Translations under genes and position numbers: made by a program
Assembly: GCA_936920195.1 (NCBI GenBank)
Contig: CAKZHE010000073.1
Span: 1 to 64,000, forward strand
Length of the DNA stretch: 64,000 nucleotides
Direction: 5' to 3'
Origin: an uncultured cyanobacterium
GTDB lineage: Bacteria > Cyanobacteriota > Cyanobacteriia > Cyanobacteriales > FACHB-T130
Notes under the pieces: model-generated
Database searches by the model: none
Told to the model about the DNA's origin: nothing
What the model saw: only the letters and a program-made list of their open reading frames with translations
Part shown: positions 36,521 through 43,994 of the stretch, one piece after another
How the letters are laid out: each line of letters starts with the position of its first letter
How positions within the stretch are numbered: the stretch's first letter is position 1

Positions 36521-37906
36521 TTATCTCAGTCGTTCCGGCAAGCAGTCTTGACGAATTAAATCCTGATAGGTTTCGCGTTGTAAAATTAGATTAGCTTCCC
36601 CGTCTTGGACTAATACCGCTGCTGGCTTGGGCAAACGATTGTAGTTAGAGGCCATGCTGTAGTTGTAAGCACCAGTGGCGAGGACGGCGAGGATATCGCC
36701 GGGGACGGTTTTGGGCAATTGGGCATTTTTAATCAAAACATCACCGGATTCGCAGTGCTTGCCTGCGACAGTAACTGTTTCGGTGGCTGGGGCAGACATC
36801 CGATTGGCGACGACAGCGCGATAAATTGATTGATAGGTGATGGGACGAGGATTATCGGACATTCCCCCGTCAACGGCGATGTAAGTCCGAATTTCGGGGA
36901 TAGTTTTACTGCTGCCAATAGTATAGGCAGTAATGCAGGCTGTGCCAATCAGCGATCGCCCTGGTTCGCACAGCAGTTTCGGTAGAGGTTGATGTTGAAT
37001 GGTGCAAGCATTCACAATAGCTTGGCTGACATTTTGCACCCATTCCGCAATACTAGGAGGATCGTCGCTTTCGGTGTAGCGAATCCCTAAACCACCACCA
37101 ATATTTAATTCTCTTACGGGTAAGCCCTTGGCAGCCGCTTTGCCCAACCACTGCACCACCACTCCCGCCAAGTCTTGATGGGGTTGCAATTCAAATATTT
37201 GCGAACCAATATGAGCGTGGAAGCCAATCAACTCTAAAACTGGATGCTGGCTGATAAATTCCAGCACTTCATCTAATTGATGGGGGTCAAAACCAAATTT
37301 ACTATCTAAATGTCCAGTGCGGATGTATTCGTGGGTATGGCATTCAATCCCCGGTGTAAAGCGTAACATGATGCGTTGGGAAGAGTTGACAATTTCTGCC
37401 AGATTTTTCAGTTCTAGCCAGTTGTCTACTACAATTGTGCAACTAGAGGCGATCGCTAGTTCTAATTCCTCTACCGATTTATTATTCCCGTGGAGATAGA
37501 TTTTATCTCCGGGAATGCCCGCTTGCACCGCCGTATAGAGTTCCCCACCCGAAACCACATCAATCCCCAAACCTTCGCTGTGGACAATTGCCGCAATTGC
37601 CAGACAATTCCATGCCTTAGAAGCATAAAGCACTTGGGACTGACCGGGATAGCAGCGATTGAGAGTATCGCGGTATTGACGGCAAGTTGTTCGCAGGGTG
37701 GCTTCATCCACCACATATAGGGGCGAACCAAACTTTTCTACCAATTCTGCCACATCGCAGCCGCCAATTTCCAAGCGATCGCGCTGATTAATTTTGGCAG
37801 TGATGGGCAGCAGTTCCTGATTGGGCGAGAGTGTAGAGTTACTATGGGTTTGGGGTAGATATTGACGACCAGAATTTTGAGTTTCTACAGGATGAGTCGA
37901 TAGCAT
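36521..37906 (-). CDS. lysA: diaminopimelate decarboxylase
   Basis: A 461-residue fold III PLP enzyme converting meso-diaminopimelate to lysine. PLP lysine is K97 in YASKAWN. Further motifs are IGFHAHIGSQI, LNIGGGLGIRY (phosphate binding), LCEPGRSLIG and the substrate-contacting cysteine in GKHCESGDVL, followed by GAYNYSMASNYN. It has an N-terminal extension of about 40 residues before the family core. It is the first gene of the leftward lysA-cdaA-uppS run, an arrangement I recall as recurring in cyanobacteria. Confidence 0.95.
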   Translation of the reverse strand: MLSTHPVETQNSGRQYLPQTHSNSTLSPNQELLPITAKINQRDRLEIGGCDVAELVEKFGSPLYVVDEATLRTTCRQYRDTLNRCYPGQSQVLYASKAWNCLAIAAIVHSEGLGIDVVSGGELYTAVQAGIPGDKIYLHGNNKSVEELELAIASSCTIVVDNWLELKNLAEIVNSSQRIMLRFTPGIECHTHEYIRTGHLDSKFGFDPHQLDEVLEFISQHPVLELIGFHAHIGSQIFELQPHQDLAGVVVQWLGKAAAKGLPVRELNIGGGLGIRYTESDDPPSIAEWVQNVSQAIVNACTIQHQPLPKLLCEPGRSLIGTACITAYTIGSSKTIPEIRTYIAVDGGMSDNPRPITYQSIYRAVVANRMSAPATETVTVAGKHCESGDVLIKNAQLPKTVPGDILAVLATGAYNYSMASNYNRLPKPAAVLVQDGEANLILQRETYQDLIRQDCLPERLR

Positions 37907-38436
37907 AAATTAATAATTGTCCTTGATGGCATCGGGGGCGGGGGGAAGAGAGGCCAAAGTTGCTAGAAACAGGATTTTGGCAGCATCTGAATAATCTCTA
38001 TACGGGTTAATCTCAGCCCTTTACGCACAAACAGATGTACTGGGGCATGAAAAAGAGCCAACCTCTCCCACTATAAAGTTTAGAGTATATAGGAATTTGA
38101 CACTTCTCTTCACTAAAGTGACGCGGATTCTTTTTGAGTTGGTTTTCCTCCTGGTTCGTTTAGACAGGACTTAATATAGCATTGATGGTGTGTTACGCTG
38201 CTCTTTAAGCCATACCGATAGCGCAGCGGCTCGACTGAGCGCTCGCCGAACGTCGTGGCGACAGCCAGATGCTACGCACTCTACGGATAGAGGCGTTGCG
38301 TAAGTCCTGTTAGAAACCGGGCTGCCAACCAGTTCATATTTTCTGGTAAAATAGTTTTAACCTATTTATCTTTCACTATTCACATCTAAACATTTGCTAG
38401 AATTTTAAAGGTTGATAGATTATATTGCTTTCACCA
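37907..38436. other. gap between lysA and the CHAT-domain gene
   Basis: A 530-base divergent gap. Apart from the palindromic element at 38166-38308 no gene or other structure is recognised. Promoters for lysA (leftward) and the large secreted protein (rightward) must lie here; the latter would sit in the roughly 125 bases right of the element. Confidence 0.55.
38166..38308. repeat. AGGACTTA-type MITE upstream of the CHAT-domain gene
   Basis: About 143 bases bounded by AGGACTTA on the left and GTTGCGTAAGTCCT on the right. The inner motif GGTGTGTTACGCTGC is close to that of the 90-bp element at 47731-47820 (GGTGCGTTACGCTGC). The extra middle part (AGCGCAGCGGCTCGACTGAG and following) is a second palindromic repeat inserted in it. 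No clean target duplication seen. Confidence 0.75.
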
Positions 38437-41400
38437 ATGCCAACGCTAATGAAGAATATTCGGCTTGTAATCGCAATGCTTTCTTCAATGGGAGCAGTTG
38501 CTTTTTCTTCTCTTTGGCCTGCATTTTCGCAAGCGATCGCTCCTGCACCCGACGACACAGGTACAATAGTTAACATCAACGGACAAACCTACAATATTAC
38601 AGGTGGCACACTATCAGGAGACGGTGCAAATCTCTTTCATAGCTTCACTCAATTTGGACTAGATACCAATCAAATCGCCAACTTTCTTTCTAATCCCAGT
38701 ATTCAAAACATTCTTGGCAGAGTTACAGGCGGCAACGCCTCTATCATTAACGGTTTAATTCAAGTCAGTGGCGGTAATTCCCATCTATATTTAATCAATC
38801 CCGCTGGAATCCTATTTGGCAACAACGCTAGCCTAAATGTCCCCGCCTCCTTCACCGCCACCACTGCCACAAGCATCAGCTTTGGCAACAACTGGTTTAA
38901 TGCCACCGGAACAAATGATTACGCCACATTAATTGGAACTCCCAGTGTATTTGCCTTTAATCCCAACCAACCAGGCAGTATTATCAACGCTGGCAACTTA
39001 ACTGTTCCCACTGGAGATATTAACCTTTTAGGTGGCACAATTATCAACACAGGCAATATTGCCGCCCCAACAGGCAACATTAACATCGCCGCTGTCCCCG
39101 GTTCCAACTTTCTGAGAATTTCCCAACCCGGACATCTCCTCAGCCTAGAAATCATCCCCTCCAATCCTACCAACAACCCATCCATTACCCCTCTTTCCCT
39201 CCCCCAACTATTAACAGAAGCGGGAAATATTAGTAACGCCACAGCCATCACCGTCAAACCCGACGGCACAGTACAATTAACAGGTTCTGGGATGACAGTA
39301 AATCAGGGAGATGTCACCATTGCCGGAAATGTAGCGGCTCAAAACGTCACCTTACTAGCCACCAACCAAGTTCATCCCACCAATCCCAACTTAATTCGTA
39401 CCTTTGACGGCACAGAAAGCGCTCCCACAGTCATCATTGCACCTTTATCAGGAAGTCAAAAAAACGATTATATTTTTCTTGATGCCACCATTAAAAACTA
39501 TCAAAGCCTTTTATATGGCGGAGAACCAGGAACCACAGCAGTAGTTGTCACTCCCAGAGAACATGGCATTGCTAAAATCACTTCTACTTTAAATGGAATA
39601 GCAGGAATTACCAACCTGCATATTATTTCCGAAGGTGATTCTGGCAACTTTTGGTTAGGAAAAGATTTTGTTAGTACAGAGCATTTAGGACTATATAGCG
39701 GCGATTTACAAACTTGGAAAGCATCTTTAAGCACCAATGCCGCAATTTTACTCTATGCTTGCAACCTTGCTGAAGAATTAGCCGGACAGCAATTTGTCAA
39801 TCAATTGCAAAATCTCACCGGAGTAAATATTGCTGCTTCCACTAACCGCACCGGAAATTCAGTATTGGGAGGAGATTGGAATTTAGAATATCAAACTGGC
39901 AAAATTAACTTGGATTTAGCCCTACGTCCAGAAGTTATGGAAAGTTATCAAAATACCTTAGCGATACTCACAGTCCTGAATAACCTGGATGACGGTACTA
40001 CTAATACTTTGCGCGGACGAATTGCCGCTGCCTCATCTGGCGATACAATTAGGTTCGATTCAATCGCATTTGGCACACCTCAAACTATTAATCTCACATT
40101 AGGAGCAGGTGGCGAACTAAGTATAAATAAAAATCTGACTATTGAAGGGACTGGAGCTATTAATTTAACGGTAAATGGAGGTAGCAGTAACTTCCGAGTA
40201 TTTGATATTACAGGCAGTATTACTGTCAATATTGATGGTATGACAATTACTGGCGGCACAGTGGCTGTATTTAGTAAAGGTGGTGGCATTCAGGTAGGAA
40301 CTGGTAGCACCTTGAATTTGAGTAACAGCACTATCAGCGGTAATTCCGCAATTTACGGCGGCGGGATCTCTAATGCTGGTATCGCCATAGTGACTAATAG
40401 CATTATTGCCAATAATTTGGCTAATAGTAGCGGCGGCGGAATCTATAACAGCGGTACTATCACCCTAACCAATAATACTATCAGTGGGAATTCCTCATCC
40501 AACGGTGGTGGCGGAATTTCCAACACCAATGGCACTGCCATTATGGATAATATCACTATTAGCGGCAATTCTGCATCTAATAGTGCTGGGGGAATTAAAA
40601 ATTTTAACAGCACTGTTACCATAACCAACAGTACCATCAGCGGCAATTCAACTAATAATCTTGGTGGCGCGATCGCCAACAACTCTAGCAGCACTGTTAC
40701 CATCACAAATAGTACGATCAGCGGCAATTCAGCGTCTATTGGTGGGGGGATCGATCATCGTACTAGCAGTAATCTCACCCTCAACAACAGCACCGTTAGC
40801 GGTAATTGGACTACTACTAATGGCGGTGGCGGTATCTACAACAATAACAGCACTGCTACCCTCAACAATAGCACTATTAGCGGCAATTCTGCTAGTACCA
40901 ATGGCGGTGGCATTGACAACAGTGGCGGCAGCATTACCAACCTCAACAACAGCAATATTAGTGGTAATTCAGCTAGTATCAATGGCGGCGGCATTGACAA
41001 CAGCGGGGGTAGCATTTTGGTTCTGACCAATAGTACCATCAGCACCAACTCAGCTAACAGTGGCGGCGGGATTGTTAACCAAAGCATAGTCACCCTAAAC
41101 AATAGTACCATCAGCAGCAATTCCGCTAACAGTGGGGGCGGAATCTACAACAATATTAGCGGCACAGCTACCCTAACTAATAGTACCATCAGTAGCAATT
41201 CAGCTAGTTTCAATGGCGGCGGGATCTTTAACAACAGCACTATTGACCTGAACAGCAGTACGATTACCAATAACATAGCTGACAGCAACAATGACGGAGC
41301 AGGAGATGGTGGGGGGATTTTTAATAACAGCAGCATCGTTAACGTTAAAAACACTATTTTAGCAGGTAACTTTGACACTTCCAATAATGCCGGATCGGGA

Positions 41401-43395
41401 ACCATTAATCCAGATGTTTCTGGCAATTTCAATGATAATGGGAATAACCTGATTGGCATTGATCAGGGTAGTGCCAGTTTTGTCAACGGCAGCAATGGCA
41501 ATATTGTTGGAACTTTAGCCGCACCTATTAATCCCCAATTAGCTACTTTAGGAAACTACGGTGGAGCCACACAAACTCATGCTTTACTCCCCGGTAGTTT
41601 GGCAATCAATAATGGGAATAATTCTGGGGCAACGACAACAGATCAACGGGGAGCTACCAGAATCTTTGGGGGAACAATTGATATTGGGGGTTATGAATCC
41701 GCAGGCTTTAGTCTTACTGCAACAGGCAGTTCCCAAACCGCTCAAATTAATACGGCTTTCTCCATACCTTTATCTGTACAAGTTACCGAAAATGCTTTTA
41801 ATCAGCCTCTCCCTTTCCCTGGTTTAAGCATCACCTTTAGCGCCCCAACTAGCGGTGCTTCTGGTACTTTTACCAATGGTTTTACTGTTACTACTAATGC
41901 TTTAGGAGTAGCGAGTAATCCTTTCACTGCCAACAATATTGCTGGTAACTTTACAGTTACGGCTTCAGCTTCTGGTTTCACTGCGGCTACTTTCAACCTA
42001 ACTAATGTGCCGCTATCATCACCATCTTCTGCTTCGTTGCAACAGCAACTAACATCAGTTATTGCAAGTGGCATCAGACCAGTAGAAGCAACAAACCCTA
42101 AACAACTAATTGTCGCTGAAGATTTTCCTATGTTGACAATTGATATAACTATTGCCAGTATAGAAGAAATATTTTCTAGGGAATATACCGAATATTTAGA
42201 AATTAATAATCCCCAAACAATATCTTTAGGCGAAGCGCAAACAATTCTACAGGAAATTGAACAAGCAACTGGGGTAAAGCCAGCAGTCATCTATGTTTTT
42301 TTCCTCCCTACAGCCGCATCTTTAGCGGAACCTCATTCATCTCAAACTAAAACCTTGGCAGCAGCTAACGATCAATTAGAATTAGTATTATTAACATCCA
42401 AAGGTAAACCAATTCGCCGTCGAGTCACTGGGGCAAAGCGAGAGCAGGTACTCAAAGTAGTGGAAGCATCTCGCAGTACATCAGATATCCGTCAACCCCG
42501 GGCATATATGTTGCCGATGCAACAACTTTATCAGTGGTTGGTGGCTCCACTGGAATCGGATTTACAAGCTCTCCAAATTAATAATCTCGCGTTTGTGATG
42601 GATAGCGGTTTGCGCTCGATTCCTTTGGCGGCGATGCACGATGGCAAAAAGTTTATTGTTGAGAAATATAGTGTGGGGTTAATGCCAAGTTTATCGCTAA
42701 CTGATACGCGCTATCGCAGCGTCCAGAATTTGCAAGTTTTGGCAATGGGAGCCGAGAAGTTTACCCAACAAAATGATTTACCTGCTGTGCCTGTGGAGTT
42801 GAATGCGATCGCCTCTCAAATTTGGCCTGGTAAATCCCTACTTAATGACCAGTTTACCATCCCAAACCTCATTCAAGCTCGTTCTTTAAAACCGTTTGGC
42901 ATTGTTCATTTAGCCACGCATGGAGAATTTAAGGCTGGGAAACCAAGTAATTCTTATATTCAATTTTGGCAGGATCAACTATCTCTAGATAAATTGCGCC
43001 AGTTGGGTTTAAATGAGCCGCCAACGGAATTATTAGTTTTGAGTGCCTGTCGTTCAGCCTTGGGAGATAAGGAAGCCGAATTGGGTTTTGCGGGGTTGGC
43101 AGTGCAAGCAGGTGTAAAGTCAGCCCTGGGGAGTTTATGGTATGTTAGCGATGCGGGAACTTTGGCACTGATGACCAGCTTTTATGAATATTTGAAACGC
43201 GCTCCCATTAAAGCCGAGGCTTTGAGAAAGGCGCAATTGGCAATGCTCAAGGGTGAAGTAAAATTGCAAGGGGGGCAGTTAATTACTCCCGATGGCAATA
43301 TTCCGTTACCTCCAGAGTTGAGCAAGTTGGGAGATAAAACCCTCACCCATCCCTACTATTGGAGTGCGTTTACAATGATTGGTAGCCCTTGGTAA
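38437..43395 (+). CDS. secreted FHA-DUF4347-beta-helix-CHAT protease-like fusion
   Basis: A 1,652-residue protein. A signal peptide (basic start, hydrophobic core, FSQA near 33) leads to a filamentous-haemagglutinin two-partner-secretion domain (about 40-160, [10 protein letters not shown]). A degenerate DUF4347 domain follows (about 340-505: IISEGDSG where SHG is usual, but YACN kept, Cys442). Next come over fifteen beta-helix coils of the [10 protein letters not shown] type (about 590-970), a [16 protein letters not shown] anchor-type end, an Ig-like domain (about 1090-1190) and a C-terminal CHAT domain (about 1215-1652). The CHAT dyad is intact: His1495 in LATHGEF and Cys1538 in [10 protein letters not shown]. 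It is probably exported as a TpsA-like adhesin carrying a caspase-like protease; no TpsB transporter is nearby. Start codon uncertain among 38425, 38437 and 38449. Confidence 0.88.
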
Positions 43396-43994
43396 ATTAT
43401 TGCACTTTAAAACGTTTAACCCCAGATGGCTTGCCAGCGGTTGCCGAACTGGATATGCTCTGCTTTGGCGGATTGTGGACTCTGGCAGGATACCAACGGG
43501 AATTAGAAAGTCCCAATAGCGATTTGCTGGTGCTGGTGGAACGCGATCGCCCTGACTCTATAATCGGAATTGGTTGTGTTTGGTCAATTCTGGAAGAAGC
43601 TCATATCACTGTTTTGGGGATTCATCCCGATTATCGTCAGCAAGGATGGGGACAAGCTCTCCTTTATGGTTTATTATGGGTTGCTTGGAGGAGAGGTTTG
43701 GAACGAGCCACTCTAGAAGTTAGAGCTTCCAATCAAGCCGCCCAATCTCTCTACCAGAAATTTGGATTTGCAGTTGCCGGGAGGCGGCGGCATTACTATC
43801 AAGATGATAGGGAAGATGCCCTGATTTTCTGGCTGAACGACTTACATAAATCCGAATTTCTGCAAAACTTAGCCCATTGGCAGACGCAAATTAGCGATCG
43901 CCTCCTGGCTTCTAACTGCCAAATAGTCATCGATTGGGATAGTCTGAGCCACCCTAGGACGGAGTTGGACTCGGAGGATGCCCTGGCAAATTGA
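43389..43994 (+). CDS. rimI: ribosomal protein bS18-alanine N-acetyltransferase-like GNAT
   Basis: A 201-residue GNAT acetyltransferase. The acetyl-CoA site is [18 protein letters not shown], followed by [19 protein letters not shown] and [16 protein letters not shown], the RimI pattern for N-terminal protein acetylation. A 45-residue C-terminal tail extends beyond the usual RimI length, as in many cyanobacterial RimI proteins. It starts with TTG and overlaps the end of the CHAT-domain gene by 7 bases, so coupling is possible even though the functions seem unrelated. Confidence 0.85.

Follow-up and report, generated by a model that had tools for sequence, protein, structure and literature searches.

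A probable two-partner secretion adhesin with a predicted C-terminal CHAT protease in an uncultured cyanobacterium

The CHAT proteases studied most, such as those of Craspase, separase and HetF, work inside cells under the control of sensors. What, then, is the role of a CHAT domain at the end of a chain that begins as a secreted adhesin? The question is raised by a single gene at 38437-43395 on the forward strand of a 64,000-nucleotide stretch of DNA (the window) from an uncultured cyanobacterium of the Cyanobacteriales (GenBank assembly GCA_936920195.1, contig CAKZHE010000073.1). A first-pass annotation, made from the letters alone, had read it as a CHAT protease carried outside the cell on an adhesin stalk. 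The domains described below support a product that could be exported in this way, and we consider it probable that the gene encodes a two-partner secretion (TPS) adhesin of the TpsA type bearing an exported, predicted CHAT cysteine endopeptidase.

From export domain to predicted protease in one chain

The frame is open throughout its 1652 codons and encodes, in order, a Sec-like signal, a TPS domain, DUF4347, a beta-helix, a choice_anch_Q domain, an Ig-like segment and CHAT. The matches to TPS, DUF4347, Beta_helix, choice_anch_Q and CHAT exceed their own cut-offs in Pfam and NCBIfam, bearing out the earlier claim that one continuous frame joins TPS, DUF4347, beta-helix and CHAT. The N-terminus (residues 1-33, 38437-38535; like all features of the gene, on the forward strand) resembles a signal peptide in sequence. 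It is followed by the TPS secretion domain (residues 43-233, 38563-39135; Pfam PF05860, E 3e-39; TIGR01901), in which an NCBIfam adhes_NPXG match spans residues 67-145; the protein thus has the TPS domain with NPxG motif by which TpsA proteins are recognised. The ten-residue TPS motif quoted in the first-pass annotation lies at residues 121-130.

At the other end of the chain, the CHAT catalytic domain (residues 1361-1650, 42517-43386) covers the PF12770 profile nearly end to end (4-289 of 289, E 3e-73). A PDB sequence search with the CHAT part returned TAL-effector repeat artefacts only and a PDB search with the CHAT profile gave nothing meaningful; therefore, Foldseek was used with an AlphaFold2 model of residues 1189-1652, built from an alignment with 63 relatives (predicted local distance difference test, pLDDT, 91.4; predicted template modelling score 0.89). 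In this model a confident fold begins at about residue 1235, before the Pfam boundary. The best matches in the PDB are the Csx29/TPR-CHAT chains of Craspase (E 7e-13), followed by separases, a SAVED-CHAT filament and gingipain R. His1495 (42919-42921) and Cys1538 (43048-43050), at the positions given in the first-pass annotation, are spaced by 43 residues, as are H615 and C658 of Csx29, which is inactive when both are mutated (PMC10028731). The module is thus predicted to be a caspase/separase-like fold with an intact His1495/Cys1538 dyad. The annotation had named beforehand the structure of this end as the point on which its proposal could fail, and the predicted C-terminal domain has the CHAT/separase fold. 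The N-terminal half of the module (residues 1236-1360, 42142-42516), delimited by comparing the predicted structure with Csx29 over ~390 aligned columns, is probably part of a pseudo-caspase half equivalent to CHAT1 of Csx29. No TPR sensor was found in the chain by Pfam. Assignment of the CHAT domain to a defence gene was dropped, PADLOC having given a weak BovA match only (E 9e-7).

TPS-CHAT fusions are common and conserved in cyanobacteria, and the same arrangement was found in relatives across the order. In an alignment of TPS-fused CHAT domains from many cyanobacterial families, the catalytic His and Cys never vary (82/82). Asp1572, His1638 and further positions are likewise invariant, and CHAT is the best conserved part of the protein across families. 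The dyad, which the annotation had asked to see compared among relatives, is therefore conserved well beyond this genome. The only cysteines in the 1652-residue chain are Cys442 in DUF4347 and Cys1538 in CHAT, both at caspase-like sites; the CHAT domains of 84 fusions hold 87 cysteines in total, nearly all catalytic.

The second caspase-like candidate is DUF4347 (PF14252; residues 346-508, 39472-39960; E 4e-50). Its model (pLDDT 94.6) matched Tce1 best in Foldseek (E 6e-5), then legumain, caspase-3, CED-3 and Csx29, and the matches also include some unrelated Rossmann-type folds; a caspase-like fold is thus moderately supported. Profile-profile comparison did not link it to CHAT in sequence (probability 0.8%, E 0.07), so that any kinship of the two domains is one of fold. 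The putative dyad of SHG His and Cys is absent from the window copy, where Glu399 (39631-39633, in SEG) replaces the His and Cys442 (39760-39762) is retained, both at the positions first reported. The annotation was right that this second caspase-like domain upstream had lost its His and understated the matter in calling it apparently dead. Among TPS-linked copies, a set gathered with the window query that samples one group and whose counts are not independent events, Glu occupies the His position in 34/34, Trp406 is kept in 34/34 and Cys442 in 33/34, whereas other cyanobacterial copies have His in 29/31 and Cys in 30/31. Therefore, the His-to-Glu change is an old fixed signature of TPS-linked DUF4347 rather than local decay of the window copy. 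The domain would be a caspase-like pseudo-protease, for which a structural, binding or regulatory role is likelier than an enzymatic one, and it offers a clean case of a caspase-like domain that exchanged a putative catalytic His for another residue and has since retained that residue. SHG-type DUF4347 is heavily multiplied in some other cyanobacteria (L196-L225), with up to 19 matches per genome; the open reading frames (ORFs) that contain it reach about 11,000 residues. A weak match of the DUF4347 profile, near full length, to a human ECT2-like protein (PDB 11xu, E 0.008) may be due to chance.

Between DUF4347 and CHAT lies a right-handed beta-helix stalk (40279-41319; Pfam Beta_helix, residues 746-918, E 3e-8). 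Residues 615-958 contain 13 copies of the coil motif GG[GA]I, mostly 24-31 residues apart, a count that does not bear out the "more than fifteen coils" first estimated. The choice-of-anchor Q domain follows (residues 1032-1088, 41530-41700; NF041518, E 2e-21), and then the Ig-like segment (residues about 1112-1185, 41770-41991), where the Ig-like domain previously called has a counterpart in an Invasin_D3 match that is weak and under the curated Pfam cut-off (E 1e-4). Residues 1192-1235 (42010-42141) form a linker of low pLDDT before the CHAT module. Stalk cysteines were seen in 24 of the 84 TPS-CHAT fusions (for example L092, L108, L145, L149 and L188). In about 20 of the 24 they form a single pair with a spacing of 4-9 residues, which sometimes sits directly ahead of the CHAT module. 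Such pairs are possibly a disulfide stop or anchor, and recall HMW1.

Proposed export, origin and locus

The proposed route begins with Sec export, which the signal peptide would direct. By eye the signal peptide of the window protein looks right, and family support comes from a crude hydropathy test, in which a hydrophobic core lies upstream of the TPS domain in 79 of 87 TPS-CHAT ORFs. A TpsB/ShlB porin, whose gene would lie at another place in the genome, would then let the protein cross the outer membrane, the TPS domain serving as the address, as its identity and gene linkage suggest. DUF4347 and the beta-helix would fold outside as a rod-like stalk. The CHAT module would move last, ending up on the surface or in the periplasm, and may there cleave particular proteins of the envelope or of neighbours.

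A search of the genome for TpsB transporters, as the annotation had advised, found ShlB genes in five convincing cases and one weak one; two of the six flank a TPS-DUF4347 paralogue on contig C141. Linkage was measured at 56 fusion loci picked by similarity alone. ShlB lies within 5 kb of the fusion in 7/56, against 0.8% expected for a 6.4 Mb genome with about 4 such genes (P about 3e-7), and it is directly upstream in the Crocosphaera-type loci L090, L091 and L114. The annotation had also held that CHAT proteins are usually cytosolic; in this genome, 14/19 unfused CHAT ORFs have signal-peptide-like N-termini by the crude hydropathy test, which contradicts that view.

Several observations weigh against export of the protease by this route. 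No TpsB gene adjoins the gene in the window, so we infer export rather than read it from the locus, and 49/56 sampled fusions lack a ShlB gene at that distance. The pore of TpsB would also have to admit a large folded protease module. Moreover, among the unfused CHATs closest to the fused clade are TPR proteins that have signal peptides but no TPS domain; these would be periplasmic.

The gene appears to have been assembled from local parts. Residues 36-1195 are 61-90% identical to a TPS-DUF4347 protein of the same genome on C141 (L118:7041-10640) and 53-81% identical to another on contig C98 (L119:7107-10937). Similarity to both ends at about residue 1191, beyond which they carry other C-terminal sequences, that of the C141 paralogue being weakly like SLFN_AlbA_2. 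In its CHAT domain the window protein shares 72% identity with a second local TPS-CHAT protein, encoded on contig C243, which has no DUF4347 and is its nearest neighbour in a quick tree. Most plausibly, therefore, the gene is a chimaera that combines two local front and back types, with the linker as the junction. The C141 and C98 paralogues have the TPS-DUF4347-beta-helix front end in common, as in C-terminal payload swapping, and with the same front end bearing a different C-terminal domain in both, CHAT is probably an interchangeable payload. In the CHAT trees, which are likewise quick trees, 81/82 fused proteins fall on one branch (Shimodaira-Hasegawa-like approximate likelihood ratio support 97), while the branch holding all 82 is poorly supported (43). 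The DUF4347 label switches eight times on this tree, with at least 3 switches forced by well-supported branches; thus, front ends have been swapped repeatedly. Related CHAT modules are also carried on different stalks in relatives.

The gene stands alone between lysA (36521-37906, reverse strand) and a rimI-like acetyltransferase gene (43389-43994, forward strand) that overlaps the CHAT stop codon. By tblastn synteny with 29 relatives, most of them have these two genes, the edges of the insertion site, side by side and in divergent orientation, usually followed by clpC. No immunity gene lies directly downstream, rimI and then clpC being the ancestral neighbours. In the spacer between lysA and the gene, at about 38210-38330, a GC-rich repeat-like stretch (GCGCAGCGGCTCGACTGAGCGCTCGCCGAACG) is possibly a short interspersed repeat.

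The possible task of the protease

Elsewhere, the same components occur as separate genes. Contig C244 of this genome (L120:4356-13068) has consecutive TPS, TPR-CHAT, DUF928 and CHAT-CHASE2 genes, contig C265 (L123) has TPR-CHAT, ShlB and TPS, and a conjugative plasmid of Gloeothece citriformis PCC 7424 (L257:2229-11941) has CHASE2, CHAT, TPS and TpsB close together. In quick trees, the two CHATs that sit beside TPS genes are among this genome's unfused CHATs closest to the fused clade. With a CHASE2-only profile, CHASE2 was found within 5 kb of 8/56 fusion loci (P about 1e-5, for CHASE2 alone); the same eight loci also carry DUF928. A first neighbour clustering had placed CHASE2-type genes at 35/81 loci, a cluster probably joined via shared partner domains such as GGDEF/EAL, and the lower figure is therefore used. 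We tentatively suggest, while thinking it rather unlikely, that TPS stalks, TpsB, extracytoplasmic CHATs, DUF928 and CHAT-CHASE2 sensors make up an envelope proteolysis system, a contact- or surface-sensing caspase-like signalling module in which the TPS-linked DUF4347 with its His-to-Glu change would serve in some cases as a pseudo-protease regulator.

How the exported protease would act can be read in several ways. In a sub-case of the adhesin-borne protease, an outside-in sensor, the stalk would be exported and CHAT kept in the periplasm, where stalk binding would activate it to cut targets in the periplasm or membrane, possibly in concert with CHASE2 sensors. The nearest unfused relatives in this genome speak for it, including as they do signal-peptide TPR-CHATs without a TPS domain beside TPS/ShlB genes, as do the eight loci with both CHASE2 and DUF928, the local CHAT-CHASE2 gene in its cassette, and the close cysteine pairs in about 20 of the 84 stalks, several just before CHAT. 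The window protein itself has no such pair and no CHASE2 or DUF928 neighbour. The FhaB prodomain and the C-terminal part of CdiA stay in the periplasm, and retention here would be by analogy with them. We regard the sensor as possible, somewhat short of probable; our confidence in it and in the exported protease do not sum to one, because the two overlap. That CHAT instead cuts its own linker or stalk, freeing the adhesin or itself, seems unlikely. A probably flexible linker precedes CHAT and the C-terminus showed no membrane anchor, but across 64 sequences the linker at 1189-1260 is unconserved, with no Arg or Lys above 25%. There is thus no evidence for a shared autocleavage site behind the self-release once proposed, although the chain may be cleaved elsewhere.

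Contact-dependent killing, also raised at first pass, would make CHAT a CdiA-like toxin delivered into neighbour cells with an immunity protein encoded alongside. The TPS front end fits, and the different C-terminal domains borne by the same stalk in local paralogues are as in polymorphic toxins. However, the gene alone fills the lysA-rimI spacer, rimI-clpC is the normal order in relatives without it, and no fitting immunity gene is present; moreover, Pfam finds no pretoxin domain, and, unlike CdiA-CT, CHAT varies least of all parts between families. We consider this reading highly improbable. Scarcely more credit is due to the view that the gene is inert decoration, a rarely expressed recombination accident without protease function. 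A chimaera inserted in the lysA-rimI spacer could be such an accident, but its frame is intact and the catalytic residues are invariant in 82/82 across many families. An exported, adhesin-borne CHAT protease remains our preferred reading.

Comparison with known systems

The closest solved fold to the window CHAT is Csx29 of Craspase (type III-E CRISPR), which shares its two-part module and His-Cys spacing. Csx29 differs in being cytosolic, with a TPR sensor and the RNA-activated partner Cas7-11, where the window protein has TPS and an adhesin stalk. Separase matches in fold (Foldseek E 3e-9 and weaker) but is eukaryotic, intracellular and not secreted. HetF of Anabaena is likewise a cyanobacterial CHAT protein, and mutation of its active site abolishes function (PMC8406250); it is, however, a membrane protein at division sites with CHAT at residues 1-555 and no TPS or stalk reported. 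Tce1, the best structural match to the window DUF4347, is a stand-alone type VI secretion cargo of P. aeruginosa, which we infer to be PA0256, a DUF4347 protein (PMC8262886); the window copy is instead an adhesin-internal domain with Glu for His.

We found no papers joining CHAT with two-partner secretion, filamentous hemagglutinin or DUF4347 in a literature whose coverage was incomplete, most subscription journals lying outside it. The labels "CHAT domain-containing" and "filamentous hemagglutinin N-terminal domain-containing" are already given by automatic annotation to genes that neighbour or resemble these. The TpsA exoproteins, among them filamentous hemagglutinin, HMW1 and LepA, resemble the window protein in their TPS domain with NPxG motif and beta-helix stalk. 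One of them, LepA, is a protease secreted by TPS (PMC5422565), and the review that lists it mentions neither caspases nor cyanobacteria and no TPS-exported CHAT protease. If our reading is true, a large cyanobacterial group of CHAT proteins with an outer-membrane export domain would shift caspase-like proteolysis to the envelope or outside the cell. Taken together, TPS-secreted proteases such as LepA and CHAT proteases such as Csx29 and HetF are known already; the joining of TPS export and CHAT in one chain may be new.

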